DNA of 64,000 bases from assembly GCA_037447655.1 (NCBI GenBank), contig JBBHKE010003327.1:39302-103301 (forward strand). The letters run 5' to 3'. The notes beneath the pieces were generated by a model. That model ran no database searches and was not told where the DNA came from. It saw only the letters and a list, made by a program, of their open reading frames with translations. Positions 4,896-63,290 of this stretch are shown one piece after another (within the stretch, counting starts at the first letter, position 1; every line of letters starts with the position of its first letter). This stretch comes from Zygnema cylindricum (Eukaryota > Streptophyta > Zygnematophyceae > Zygnematales > Zygnemataceae). The position numbers were made by a program, and so were the translations under genes.

Positions 4896-7800
4896 CTAAA
4901 AAAAAAAAGAAAAAAAAGGAGGAAAAAAACCGAAAAGTAAAAAAAAAGTTCAGGAAAGTTCGAATTGGATGGCTATTTGCATTCACAAAACTAGAGAAAC
5001 CGAAGGTTAGTAATATCCCGTAGGAGGCAAAGGGGAAGACGGAGGAAAATGAGGAATGTAAAACTAACAACATCGAAAAATACCAAACAGGATTTGATAG
5101 AGTATATATGAATAGTTATTACAGTCAAGAGATTATCAGTGTGGCGTTTTAGTGTTTTTGCTTCTAATTCAGTTCGAAATGACGTTCAAATATTTTTAAT
5201 TTTAATTTTGATTCTAAATATTTTAAAGAGTTAGCGTTAGGGAAAAAAAGTTAGTATTGTTAGCGCTATTTTGTGGTCAGACGAGAAAAAAAAACCAACA
5301 CCAAATTTGTGTTGTTAACACTAATAATGATAACCGGTGTACATTGGAAGAGGGTAGAGAAGAAAAAAAAGTACTTTTTAGGGTATATTAGGGCTTTTCT
5401 AAGGTTTTATACATATGTCAGCATAGCGTACGGATATATCATATGATATTCAGAGAAACAATGGGACAAAAGAAGACAAGCAAGAAATAAAAAGGGCTAT
5501 AGGCTCGTTGCTTAATATGAGAGACAAATAAAAAATAGGAAGAGACAGAGTACGAAAAAGATACCGAATCAAGGAGGGAAACACGGAGAAGAAAACGAGA
5601 TAAGAGACGAGAAAAAAACCCAAAAGAATTTTACCGGAGATTATTTTTGTCGATAGTTGAGCTGCGAGTTCCCATCCGTCTTCGAAAGCAGCATTTGCTC
5701 CTTGACCGGATGATGGAAACAGAGCATGTGCTGCATCTGTTTTTAAAAAACAAAAACAAAAAAAAAATTAGACAAAGAAAAATGATAAAAATGAAAAAAA
5801 CGAAAATAGAAAATAAAAAACAAAAGAAAAAAACCCAAATGAGGGCCGCAACACAAAATGCACCGTTGCCGGTAAACAAAAAAACAGAAAAGATGTAATT
5901 CTTGAAGGGTTTGTAAAGCTTTGGAAGTCCTTAAGAAACGTATCGATATTCTGAAAGATCCCCGTTTACTGTTACATATGCGGGTTTACTAAATGAAACA
6001 ATATTTACTAACAAACTCCGTGACTTTTGACAACTATACCACTTATTGTAATAGAGCCTGGAAGAATAAAAATAGGATAAGACTGCATGATTATTCGTGT
6101 GTCAGAAGAGGACTTGGGCAGATATCCAAATTCCATATATGTTTCCTCCGGTAATTAATACGGTCCAGAGTGAGAAGTCTAATTGCAAAGTGAAAATAAC
6201 AAACCCCAAAACTAGCTTTGTCAATACTATTTAAGTTGAATATTATAGCCATTCAAAAATTCCTTTTGCTACAAAAGATCCAAAATTCTGGTCGATCTTA
6301 AGAAGAGTCCTCCTTAACTTTCCATAATTCTGAACAAATTCCTCGGTACCAAGTTCAAAGAAAGAGGTTTAAAAAAAAAACTTTAAATATTCCTTTTGCT
6401 AATTTTTAAGTGCATAGAAAACACTAGCCTAGACTACCAAATGTAGTATGCGGAATCAATTTCCGAGTCTTCGCCGCTGTCAAACTGTGACAAAATAAAA
6501 TAACGGAATAAATATTTTCCTTGAAAAAACCATAATCATATTTTTAAATTAGCCATATTTTCAGTCGAAACACGACAAGAAGAAAGATAAAAACTCCTTG
6601 ATCTCAATTGCCGTACTTAGACCAATGTGAAATCAAAAATAACGTTCAAAATTTTACATATGTATTATCTCAAAAAGCAATTCAATGCTGTGAACTTTTC
6701 TACCCTCTACTATTGACATACATTTCTTGATGTGAAGTTTTTTATTGACATTTCACTGAATTCCCAATTCATTCTCCACCTTTTCATTTAGGCTCGATAG
6801 AGAACCTTTTGTTTTGAATCACTCTTCCTCATTTTTCTCTCACATCCATCCTCTTACCATGTTTTTTAACCCTTTCAAGTCATCGAGAATTATCCCTTCA
6901 TATGACATTTGTGTTCATTTATTTTAACATTTGTTTTAATTTTCTCATCAATCATTTTTTTCCTCAGCAGTCTTTTTTTAGTCACTTTCCAAATCCATTT
7001 TCTCACATCTTTCCCTTTCATTTTGCAAAGCTTATTTTCAACCTTTGTTTTTCCTTCTACACAAGGCTTCTTAAACTTTTAACAACTCAATCAAAGAGCA
7101 TTTTTTGTTACATAACATGTGTTCACTTAGATCACATTTTGTTCTTTCTTGTACATTGGACATTTTCTCGAAATTTTTCCCTGTTAAATTTCTTATCCGA
7201 ATTTCCCTATTCGATCCGATTTCGACATTATAAAAAAATATTTTCTACTTCACTCAAGGCCCTGTTCTCCCCTTCAATCGCTTTCTAATTTCTTTTACCT
7301 CCCCTATCATTCCCCCCTTTTCACAACTACAATTGAATGGGAGCATTGGAGTACACATTTAGTTGTGTAATTAGCGGAACGACATTTTTACTTGTACCTT
7401 AGGGTACGGCCCCATGTGGCTAAATAAGGGATTTTTCTGTCGTTTTCCTCAAAAGCTTAGTGCCGTCTTGTTGAAGTTCCAACCGTACGAAGAAATCGCA
7501 ATGCGTCATCTTCGAACTTAGGATGTACGACAAGTTGTCGTATTGTGTTTTTTCGACCCACAGTCACGTCATTTTCAAAATTATCCTAAAACACATAGAC
7601 GATGTATTTTAAATAAAGTAACACCTCTTTCACGAATAGAAAAACAGATTCGCACGTGAAAAAAGTTTCCAAAAGTTTTTGACAACAAGAAAAAGCACAC
7701 GGTTATTTCTTTTTGTCCGCTTGCATTTTGTGCGGATTTTTTTTGCAGGGGTCACAAGGCTGCAATGCCATTTCACGAAAAGATGAAAAATCTGCGAATG

Positions 7801-10800
7801 CACCACTGACTCTCGCGCCTCTCTTACCTTGTTCACTTTTCCTCTCTTTCACTCAAAACTTCACTACTTCGAAAGACTAGTAGAGGAAGGCACTGAGGAC
7901 GACTGCATGTGCACAAACCAAGTCACACTGGGAAGAATCCAGCAAACACGCCCAAAAAAAAAAAAAAAAAAATTGAAGGGGCCTCAAGAATTGAATTTCC
8001 ATTCATGGCAACCGAATAGGAGAGGCAAACACAAAAGTATCTTATTCAGCCATGGCTGGAAAACTGTACGTCTACGATGTCATGCAAAGACATGCGACGT
8101 ACCAAAATGTTTCAAAAAATACGGTGTCTTGCGACGTTCTAAAACGTTTCAAAAAATACGGTGCGTCAAGACAAATTGTAGACGTTGTCAACCATCACCG
8201 GCATTGTCGACGTATAGAATTGTCACAGCCTTAAGTAACAATTTTGTTGTTAGGGTACTGCCCCATGTAGTTGTAACTTATCAAACTTACTTTGCATATT
8301 AGCGCGGATAAGGCGCACCCGGATTTCAAGTGTCTCTCTATGTTTACTCAAAATTGTTACTTAACTTTGTGACGATTGTATACGTCAACAATACCCGTGA
8401 CGGCTGTCACCTTCTACAATCTGTCTTTGTCGCTCGGTTTTTTTTCAAAATTTTTTGAAGCGTTGCAAGTCACATCGTAATTTTGAAATGATTTGGCATG
8501 TCGCATGTCATTGCATGACATCGTAGACGTACAACTTTGCCACCGTGCCTGTACAACATGCCTTTGCGTAAACCTCTCTTGTCTTGCCGCCATGACTTCG
8601 CAGGTTTTTCACCTTCGCAGATTTCTCAACTTTGCGTGAAATGACACTGCACCATCGAGACCCCAGCAAAAAAAAACCGTACAAGGTGCATGCGAACAAA
8701 AACGAACAGCCTTATACTTTTTCAGTGGTCAAAAACTTTTGAAAATTTTTCACACGTGGGACTATGATTTTCTATTCGTGTAAACGGTTTTACTTTGCTT
8801 AAAACACTTTGCCCATGATAAGTTTGAAGATGACGTGACAGTGGGTCGAAAAAACACAATACGCCAAATTTTAGTCTATCCTAAGTTCGAGAATAACGCA
8901 AATTGTACTCTACAAATTTGCGATTTCTTTGAACGGTTGCAATTTCGGCATTACGGCGCTAAGTTTTAAAAGAAAACGACAGAAAACAACCCGAACTTAG
9001 CCACATAGGGCCGCATCGTCACACATTGGCACTCTTGAAAACAGTGTACGGAGAATTTTCGCTATAATATAAAGTAAGTTCGTTAAGTTACAATTACATG
9101 GGGCTGTAACCTTAGTTTTGTAAACAATTTTCGAGACGGTACACTGGTTTCCGTTTGTTATAAACCGGTTCATGAAAAATCATTTTTTATGTACTTTCTG
9201 TTCACACCCTATTCACACCTTGTAATTAGTATTGTGTGACAACAACTTTTTATCGATAACCGATATATAACCTTTTTTGTTGCATCGATAATCGATATAT
9301 TACACTCTATATTTCATTGGTACCGTTCTGTATTCTAATGAAAGTGTCGTACCCCAACATAGTTATTTTTTTTTAAACACCCTCCTTTGCGATTGAGCAC
9401 CTCTCCCTCCCACAAGAGGGATATGTTGGATTGGCACGTGATTCCCAGTTCAATACGGGGTAGAATGTGATACGTCACACTCGAAGCCGCCTAAAATAAA
9501 TAGGTACGGACCTGCTAGGCTCTACATCAAGCAAGTGTCGCAATGGTTAGTGCACTTACAGCTCAAGTCATGTGGCACAGTTGTTAGTACGCTAATAGCT
9601 TAAGTCAGAGGTCCCAGGTTCGAGCCCTGGCCGGCTCACTTTTCCCTAGTATGGGACATACCGAATCCCGGATTTCAAGGAAATCAACATGGTATTGGAG
9701 CCAGGGGGATTGCAGATGGTGTGACCGGCCTTCCCGTGAGGGGGGTTGTTAGATTGGCACGTGAATGCCGGTTCAATACGGGGTAGAATGTGATACGTCA
9801 CACTCGAAGCCGCCTAAAATAAATAGGTACGGACCCGCCAGGCTCTACATCGAGCTGGTGGCACAGTGGTTTGTGCGCTGACAGCTCAAGTCAGAGGTCC
9901 CACGTTCGAGCCCTAGCCGGCTCACTTTTCCCTAGTATGGGACATACCGAATCCCGGATTTCAAGGAAATCAACAGGATATATCGGTTATCGGTGGTTAT
10001 CTATTATTAGTGCTCATATATCAACATTTAATTGCGATAATTGACAATAACGAGTTGATCTACTCTTCTGAACCTTTATGGATAACAGTTATCGATATAT
10101 GGGTTACCAAACTTATCGTCGATAGTAAATTCAATGATGCACAACACTTGTTGTAATCATGGTATTTAATCGTCACATAGCTTAGCGAACCGTCGCTTCA
10201 TCCTTTTTAGATTCTTCTCGTTGACTTTTGTCATTTATTTTTTGCTTCCACTTTACCATTTCTTAACCTGGGACAATCACAACCTACATCATGTGCCATG
10301 ATTCTTCTTCCTCTCCTCTTTGATCTCTTTCTTCAATTTCTTCTCTTTTGCCCACCAAGCCCTTACCTTCTAGATCTACCCCCCTCGGAGCCTCACTTTC
10401 ATCTGAAAACAACAACACAACAGGACCTGATCTCTTCCTCTCCCCTTAACCTTTTTGACGAAAATCCTCTCCCTCTACTCCCTCGGAACCTCACTTCCGT
10501 CCGACAACAACCGAAGGATCCAAACCTTTTTTGTCACAGTCACGAACCCCGATGTAAGTTTCCTCCCTCTCTCCATAGAGGTCCATGTGGGAGGACGAGA
10601 GGGAGGATGTGGAGTAAGAGATGGAGGTGGAAGGATAGGGCTTTTGTTATTGCTAGAGAATCTCACCTCCAAGAAGCGCTACTCTTCCATAGACCCAACG
10701 CTCTAAAACCGGCATATCTAAAACCCTTCGCTCTATAATTTCCTCCAGTTCAATAACCTGCAAAAATCCCATTTATTTTTCCTAACCGGTCAGTTTTTTG

Positions 10801-60893: not shown

Positions 60894-61786
60894 TAGTGTT
60901 GTGTATCGGTAAAAAACTTATCGCGATAACACCGATACCGATAGTTATCGGTTATCGAAAGGTAAGAGATTCCGATATATCGGTCTGGGACAAACAAATT
61001 CCATATCGGCGATAACTTCAAAAATATATAGTATGCATACAATAGTACTTTATAACATACTGTATTATTTTATTGATTTTATATAGCGTGGTATGCCACG
61101 TATAAAAACCTGTTCCGTTACCGCTTAACTGCAATTTATTACGGATAGCGCAGCATATAAACGTTGGCCGGTTAATTGAACAAAACTTTTACGGCGACGT
61201 ACGTAATTTTACTAAAAAACTGGTGAACATGGAACTGGAAAAGGACGGCGGACACAAAAGTACAACGGAAGCAAAATAACATTATACGCGCCGCCGGAAT
61301 CGAACGGACGACTTGGAGTGAGAAAACACGAGCGGACGGGTCAGCGTGAGCGCCGGCATCCCGGAATGGCTCTTTTGGCAGCTTATGCCAAAAAAGTCGG
61401 CAGATTCACACGTGGCATGTCCCAGTGGATCTCAGGAATAAAAGGACAAAGCCATGGCGTCGGATGTGAAAGGTACATCGTTTTTACTGGATCCGTATCA
61501 AAACCGTACAGATCTCATGGCGGCTACTGTACTTTCTGTGTTTGTACACGTCCGGGGAATAAGACGTACAGTTGGGTGTACATGCCGTACAATTATCTGT
61601 ACGGCCCGTACAGTTATCGCCGATAGTTATCGTTATCGGCATTATCGCCGATAAGTACCCGATATTATCGGCTACTTATCGGCGATAAGACCGATGTCGA
61701 TATATCGTACCAATAAATCGATTATCGGAAACCCGAAAAAAGGCCCATATCGGTTATCGGCAAATCCTTACCGATACACAACACTA
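60894..61786. mobile_element. hAT-like non-autonomous element with captured LTR-like DNA
   Basis: The perfect 19-bp TIRs TAGTGTTGTGTATCGGTAA and TTACCGATACACAACACTA flank 893 bp. Flanks share GAAAAAA (60887-60893 and 61787-61793). Subterminal regions are full of ATCGGCGATAA/CCGATA repeats. The middle (about 61130-61620) is colinear with part of the D LTR (CCCGGAATGG..C.TTTTGGCA, ACGTGGCATG, GTACAGA). No transposase frame. Confidence 0.8.
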
Positions 61787-63290
61787 GAAAAAACCCAATA
61801 CTTTAACACATGGCACATACAGTAACACTAAAATCTGGCAGGCTGTCACACCCTAGATCACGATTGACCATATCTAGTCTAAAAGTCAACGATAGATCCA
61901 AAGCAGTTTGGGGTCCAAAAACGAGCCTCTCAATTCAATGTATTACCCTCAAACCGCGAACCTTCGATTTTATCTGCCGACGCGGCCCCTTCAAATATTC
62001 TCCCCGAGCCGTGGCCCTTTGACTCGACACCTGCCGAAGCGCTACCCGGCCCGGTGCCAGGTCGGGCGTGTCCGTACAGATTTGTTTTCGGCGCATTCGG
62101 GCGTGGACAATTGGACGCCTGATGTGTAACGGCAACCTGCTGCCGAGTCAATGCTACAGTACTCATCCACTACGTGACAACATATTGTCCTCGTCGTTGT
62201 GCCTTTTCTTAGGATCTCTTTTTTGTTGAGGTACAATTTTGGTTGTGTAACTAGTGAAAATGTACTTTTCAATGTTGTACCGTACTGCGCATGTCATTTT
62301 CAGTGCGGTTGTGGCTCCCTGTCTGTTCAACGTTGATTCATGTATTTTGTTTTGTTTGTGTACGAACGCCCTTGTTATTATCGGGGCACAATTTGTAATC
62401 ACTGTTTTTTGTCCTGTAGCTTGCCGACCCATTATATCGTCGACTCCGTCCGTCGCACTTTTTTCACTAATTATTATAGTTGTTCACACCGTTTAGTGCG
62501 AACGATAAATCACGACGAACTATAAGTGACGAACGCATTGAACGTTTTGAAAAAATCGTAAAAATCGATACTGAATTTTCGTCGGTACTATTCCGTACAT
62601 GTAAACAAAAAAAGAATTTTACAATGTAACGCAGTTTGTACATTTTTCTTACATTTCCGTATCTTTTCGTTATAGTTCGTACATTTTTTGTACAATTCCG
62701 TACATTTCCGTAAAATTCGTGTTCAGTTTCCGAATATAGAGTACTACGAAGTGCAACGTATCTTTTCGTCAAATTCCATACATTTACCGTACAAAACTGT
62801 ACAGCTATCATAAAATACCGTACATTTCTAGTAAATTAGCAGTTCAGTTTACCGGACAGAAAGTACATCGATTTTTTACTATTTTTTCAACAGTCACAAA
62901 TTATACGTTTCATTCGGGAAAAAGTAAAAAATCACACGATTTGAACAACAGCGCTAATTATAAATTCTTGGTATGGCGTTGTGCACATTTACCATAACAA
63001 TTGTCAATTTGTGATTCTTTCGTCATAGATTCCATAAACGTAATGTTACTTTTAGGTGATTGATCACCGCATGCATTATTTTGGTTGCGCGCAACCATAT
63101 GCCAGCTTGTCAAAGATCGAACATTCTAGGTACGCATGGGTACAAGTTTGAATAACGTTGATTTTAGATTTGAAGGTCATATACGTTTGGACACCTTTAC
63201 ATAGACGTCGAACTCGCGAAACACACACGAAACGAACCTGCAAATAATTACCATTCAACATCGTGAAAACCGGAGCCTGCCATTTCGGGT
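61787..63290. other. Intergenic DNA without recognised genes
   Basis: A GC-richer stretch (61980-62150) gives overlapping frames on both strands but no domain. 62570-62880 is littered with CCGTACATTT-like motifs. Nothing else could be supported. Confidence 0.4.

Follow-up and report, generated by a model that had tools for sequence, protein, structure and literature searches.

Does the tRNA-like sequence in each LTR of a short retroelement belong to that element, and what might it do there? The question is raised by positions 9424–9975 of the window, i.e. the whole 64,000-nucleotide stretch of DNA analysed here. We conclude with considerable confidence that a Helenus-type TRIM, now partly decayed, occupies this locus and that it belongs to a family of non-coding LTR retrotransposons whose LTRs carry a tRNA-like block. 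Below we describe the copy and its family and examine how the block may be used, how constant it is and how closely it resembles a tRNA.

The initial annotation had proposed a TRIM with TG...CA LTRs, a PBS, a polypurine tract and a GGATA duplication. All of these were confirmed. The LTR pair and its interior span 552 bp with TG...CA ends (all features are on the plus strand), and perfect copies of GGATA flank them at 9419–9423 and 9976–9980. Both LTRs start with TGTT and end with CAACA. The coordinates and parts assigned initially stood, but equal LTR lengths did not: the 5' LTR (9424–9689, TGTTGG...CAACA) has 266 bp, the 3' LTR (9747–9975) 229 bp. A 37-nt tandem duplication accounts for the greater length of the 5' LTR; it lies in the tRNA-like part of this LTR (9529–9638), which is thereby extended. 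The two units (9535–9571 and 9572–9608) lie in the D-arm and anticodon-arm region and are identical at 27 of 37 positions. Outside the duplication 17 of 229 positions distinguish the two window LTRs. In the 3' LTR the tRNA-like part (9852–9924) comprises 73 nt including a discriminator-like A. The internal region (9690–9746) has 57 bp, a length at which no protein of its own can be encoded. It contains a PBS of the initiator tRNA-Met type (9690–9704) and a polypurine tract, GAGGGGGG (9738–9745). Palindromic motifs like CGATAACCGATAT are repeated on both flanks of the TRIM (9240–9310 and 9985–10125) and again at 61660–61790; perhaps they constitute another small repeat family. A weak likeness to LTR positions 53–112, mostly directly upstream of the tRNA-like part, was seen on the minus strand at 62105–62046. 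It was set aside as no LTR anatomy was visible there.

The genome (353 Mb, 2,689 contigs) was searched with the whole element. The search returned 886 first-look candidates; the best 40 were scored and yielded 46 matches including the window's own. The matches other than the window's own were covered by fetching 37 loci. Together with the window these hold 41 arrays with at least two LTRs. The usual element is about 515 bp long, without the additional 37 nt of the window copy. PBS and polypurine tract were present between the LTRs in an alignment of 46 internal regions, in which the tract is G-rich. The majority PBS is TGGTATCGGAGCCAG, some copies have the variant TGGTATCAGAGCCAG, and both presumably fit the 3' end of plant initiator tRNA-Met. 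Perfect 5-bp duplications were found in 20 of the 41 arrays, two of which, both at locus L035, have AGTTT in common and may represent one insertion that was copied. Several of the 21 arrays without a perfect duplication are truncated at one end. The two L035 copies (621–1134 and 7374–7887), each with the AGTTT duplication, are about 6.75 kb apart and have equal match values, which suggests either an assembly effect or duplication of the segment following insertion. Adjacent LTR pairs were identical in 3 of 41 cases and ranged down to about 78% alike with gaps counted; therefore, the family has had both old and recent mobility. At 4 of the 37 loci (L019, L030, L041 and L043) three or four LTRs stand in tandem. 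IMG/VR contained no exact match to a 27-base LTR pattern.

For the analysis of the LTRs we aligned those matches that reach query positions 10 and 220, i.e. 81 of 88. Left out were two from L037 and one each from L029, L031, L041, L044 and L045. Conservation was counted over 79 rows, the two window LTRs being omitted.

How might the block be used? The block in each LTR would most likely be an internal pol III promoter of type 2. The A- and B-box patterns applied here follow the general pol III consensus. Of the 81 LTRs, 74 have the A-box pattern, 60 the B-box pattern, 75 a run of four or more T and 54 all three; the longest T run was exactly four in 73. In the window the 3' copy has an A box, TGGCACAGTGG (9859–9869), a B box, CGTTCGAGCCC (9903–9913; sibling column majority GGTTCGAGCCC), and a T4 (9926–9929) as a possible weak pol III terminator. 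The B box had been called near-consensus; at 9903 it has a C, and 72 of the 79 sibling LTRs have a G there. The 5' copy lacks the A-box pattern and is followed by TTTT at 9640–9643. The window copy is partly decayed. An A/T-rich, TATA-like stretch at 9815–9827, 25–37 nt 5' of the tRNA-like part, may serve as a promoter aid; the column at position 9820 has G in 42, T in 33 and A in 4 LTRs.

This stretch is also the starting point of the best-surviving alternative. As in ordinary TRIMs, pol II may transcribe the family from 9815–9827, starting near 9850, and the block would be a passenger in R. We consider this rather unlikely, yet several observations are in its favor. The whole block was no less variable than the remaining LTR (Mann-Whitney P=0.52, non-CpG columns), and stem columns were more variable than loop columns (5.7% vs 3.0%, non-CpG). 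A further point against the pol III model is that the B box (5.4% column variation) was similar to U3 (6.4%). Because of these three findings, selection on the promoter or the fold is not demonstrated. Further, the T4 directly 3' of the block would impede a full pol III transcript, and the accessible part of PMC10853983 describes Cassandra-related TRIMs in which TATA boxes replace the 5S promoter. Against a passenger role, the columns of the A box (2.7%) and the T4 (1.9%) varied less than U3. In addition, 11 compensatory double changes were counted in the cloverleaf compared to a mean of 4.9 in shuffles, of which 2 out of 500 reached 11, an excess that is inflated by kinship among the copies. 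Single pair-keeping changes showed no excess (55 vs 57.8 in shuffles). The A/T-rich box does not decide between pol II and pol III because two rodent pol III genes also require TATA-like boxes, at -31/-24, according to an excerpt of PMC10137851.

The initial annotation had suggested that the element may make a pol III transcript. From the arrangement of the parts the following cycle can be proposed, with moderate confidence in its pol III step. Pol III would start near the equivalent of 9852 in the 5' LTR, read through the weak T4 of this LTR and stop at the T4 of the 3' LTR. The product would be an RNA of about 364 nt, both ends of which consist of one 78-nt tRNA-like R region. Initiator tRNA-Met would prime from the PBS, the R repeat would serve strand transfer, and the polypurine tract would prime the second strand. 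Finally, a borrowed integrase would insert the DNA, creating the 5-bp duplication. We infer the use of pol III, the start and stop sites and the helper. Besides the variability of the block, other points weigh against this model. Of the 81 LTRs, 21 depart from the B-box pattern. In addition, the T4 of the 5' LTR should itself halt pol III, i.e. the model would require termination that is leaky at exactly T4 strength. In yeast five T are the minimal and six the efficient pol III terminator, as given in the accessible part of PMC9278858; the T4 of the block is below this minimum, a yeast standard which may not be that of plants. The read-through-then-stop scheme would parallel Cassandra, in which the transcript starts in the 5' LTR and stops in the 3' LTR according to the introduction of Kojima (PMC10886601).

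The family would have been mobilised by proteins of an autonomous element, most likely a Copia. A helper of this type would agree with the 5-bp duplications and with the PBS of the tRNA-iMet type. Copia-like frames are many in the window and in neighbouring loci (recognised by eye and through the relatives of one frame). A Copia element on contig C1393 (556422–561714, loci L064/L066) has the PBS TGGTATCGGAGCTAG and LTRs that are 93% alike. Compared with U3, block, U5 and interior of the TRIM it gave no match at E≤0.01; the type of PBS is the sole feature which it has in common with the TRIM family. Another locus, L061, contains an exon of a sugar-phosphate translocator, the named relatives of which include plant glucose-6-phosphate translocators; this marks the host as a plant.

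Is the block a constant part of the LTR? Across the 37 fetched loci and the window it was overlapped by 86 of 88 LTR matches. The two matches without overlap are a 32-nt U5 scrap (L041) and one LTR of L037. The position of the block was constant in 81 of 81 near-full LTRs, a few of which carry small internal deletions; this set is biased toward block-bearing LTRs since the query itself carried the block. Because block-carrying queries favour such LTRs, a search with U3 only was run (907 candidates, best 40 scored). Outside contig C270 it produced 21 previously unseen U3 matches, and 19 of these loci were fetched, the remaining two being C984 and C1164:21457. At 19 of 19 loci the block begins directly 3' of U3 (85 bases were read). 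At L076 it stops after 32 nt, and at L081 the sequence diverges near position 69. The converse search, with the tRNA-like 80 nt as a query, gave 824 candidates, the best 40 of which were scored (all at least 95%). Among them the U3 match on C984 was found to have the block. Of 13 tRNA-like hits without a partner 8 were fetched, and all 8 sit in LTRs of the TRIM family, one of them truncated; a more distant free copy would escape a search in which the best 40 candidates were scored.

Hence the check for further LTR copies proposed in the initial annotation showed that the block is kept. LTRs without it were exceptional: one of the L037 LTRs and, within a single tandem array of contig C270, two that are shrunken. 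The block was present in copies down to about 74–79% identity. These data support that the tRNA-like unit is a feature of the family and not a one-off insertion. It had been considered initially that the unit might be an unrelated SINE which inserted once before duplication of the LTR. This was not borne out by the family-wide occurrence. Similarly, it is very improbable that a young SINE or a tRNA gene landed late in one LTR and is present in only part of the family. The block-free LTR in one divergent copy, L037, would agree with such an event. A single late SINE insertion was rejected, however, on the basis of the 86 of 88 LTR matches and the 19 of 19 U3-selected loci that carry the block; its presence in copies down to the identity given above and the placement of all 8 unpaired hits examined likewise argue against it. 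Small tandem duplications inside the block recur, at 9535–9608 of the window, at L021 and L094, and at three of the 19 U3-selected loci (L075, L083 and L092). Perhaps reverse transcriptase slipped while copying a structured R region.

The L037 copy is the most divergent one. In its LTR at 665–797 U3 is joined straight to U5 and the tRNA-like block is absent. The 50 bases past U3 share 35 identities with the last 51 LTR bases of the window; none of 2,000 random pieces of the window scored as high. In the second LTR of this copy the block is present, and the match ends at position 181. Because the other LTR of the copy carries the block, a deletion is the simpler reading of the block-free LTR. 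A bolder reading appears doubtful to us: the block would be exactly the R region, a pol III unit whose weak T4 is passed in one LTR and heeded in the other, hence a single module acting as promoter, terminator and strand-transfer repeat, and the block-free LTR of L037 would be a survivor from before its capture. If this were true, L037 would show the origin of a Helenus lineage directly within one genome.

How tRNA-like is the block? The 3' copy had been described as cloverleaf-like with a TTTT stop. ARAGORN read 9852–9925 as a tRNA, and the TTTT is present at 9926–9929. The Rfam tRNA model RF00005 did not agree: it had no match at gathering score in the whole window, and within 9400–10000 the 3' copy was not matched at E≤10. 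In the same interval the 5' copy reached 17.2 bits, which is under the gathering score. Other Rfam matches in the window that were under the cut-offs were to microRNA models only, mostly in one stretch near 3.9 kb. The sibling copies resembled tRNAs much more closely. In 15 sibling loci (36 LTR matches) RF00005 matched 28 times with at least the gathering score, and 14 of these matches scored 54.6 bits. Therefore, the resemblance to tRNA is not due to chance, and a chance cloverleaf was rejected. This substantiates the claim of a tRNA-like sequence in each LTR. With ARAGORN, 35 of 37 loci yielded one or more tRNA calls. In the majority block 21 of 21 stem pairs form, and 92.8% of 1,267 pair cells pair (61 distinct sequences). 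Among the predicted folds of the majority block the best is not a cloverleaf; it is ahead of the cloverleaf by 0.2 kcal/mol.

Does the block act as a working tRNA? Among the 79 sibling LTRs, 72 have G at position 33 and 5 have A; 2 have a gap there and none has U. To our knowledge, U at position 33 is near universal among tRNAs. Because it is never found in 79 LTRs, a working tRNA is unlikely. Accordingly, a cluster of functional tRNA-Glu(CUC) genes that by chance sits in repeats is extremely improbable and was rejected on the missing U33. In its favour, ARAGORN calls tRNA-Glu at most fetched loci, every stem of the majority block pairs and many copies score high in Rfam; against it, the block also occupies a constant place within TG...CA LTRs.

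Several known elements share parts of this anatomy. Ordinary plant TRIMs, SMARTs and retrozymes also have short LTRs, a PBS and a polypurine tract and are non-coding, but lack a tRNA-like block. Retrozymes carry hammerhead ribozymes. With tRNA-derived SINEs the family has the tRNA-like pol III head in common, whereas LTRs, PBS and polypurine tract are absent in SINEs. The latter are mobilised by LINE proteins via target-primed reverse transcription. Cassandra is likewise a non-coding TRIM with a pol III promoter module in its LTRs and a methionine PBS, according to the accessible parts of PMC7215508 and PMC10853983. Tandem LTR arrays, as at the four loci above, are reported for Cassandra (PMC7215508, in the part available) and also for Helenus LTR-11_DR (PMC10886601). 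The Cassandra module, however, is derived from 5S rRNA and that of the family here from tRNA; 5S rRNA of Rfam had no match in the window or in the 15 sibling loci.

The closest likeness is to Helenus. The initial annotation knew of no described TRIM with a tRNA-like LTR. This was mistaken: in 2024 Kojima gave the name Helenus to TRIMs with tRNA-derived sequence in their LTRs, with hosts among fungi, animals and one plant, and proposed the term TRIMp3 for those TRIMs that have a pol III promoter (PMC10886601). Helenus is also mentioned in a 2026 meeting report (PMC12859917, as excerpted). Helenus elements are non-autonomous with two LTRs, generally below 1000 bp, and the lengths stated range from 311 to 1263 bp (PMC10886601); the window copy with 552 bp and most others with about 515 bp are similar. 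As in Helenus, each LTR has a tRNA-derived block with A and B boxes, and a PBS and a polypurine tract lie between the LTRs. The fungal and plant families of Helenus have 5-bp duplications as do the arrays reported here, and for the fungal families a Copia helper was proposed, which is favoured here as well (PMC10886601). In Helenus-1_SMo from Selaginella moellendorffii the LTRs have 120 bp and the interior 85 bp (PMC10886601), compared to 229 and 57 here. As for box conservation, the A and B patterns are kept in most LTRs of our family, with the block as a whole no more conserved than the LTR. In Helenus the predicted structures argued against a tRNA function, and few families could encode a tRNA (PMC10886601); in contrast, many copies here match the Rfam tRNA model well, though without U33. 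The placement with Helenus is supported by structural features, and the comparison was by description, not by sequence. It is a placement in a structure-defined group for which Kojima expects several origins (PMC10886601). Kojima also proposed that Helenus arose by capture of a SINE (PMC10886601). The capture of a SINE-like head by an LTR element, as suggested in the initial annotation, is plausible for the present family. In the accessible part of the open-licence full-text literature no further plant family of the Helenus kind was found.

In summary, the elements form a new plant family, well supported, of a type described in 2024. Kojima named one plant family of tRNA-bearing TRIMs; to this the present one, some copies of which were inserted recently, can be added. 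If the host is not Selaginella, the present family represents a second host lineage among plants. Thus, plant LTR elements of the pol III type extend beyond the 5S-bearing Cassandra. Because of the cloverleaf in the LTRs, predictors of tRNA genes may count such LTRs as tRNA-Glu genes.
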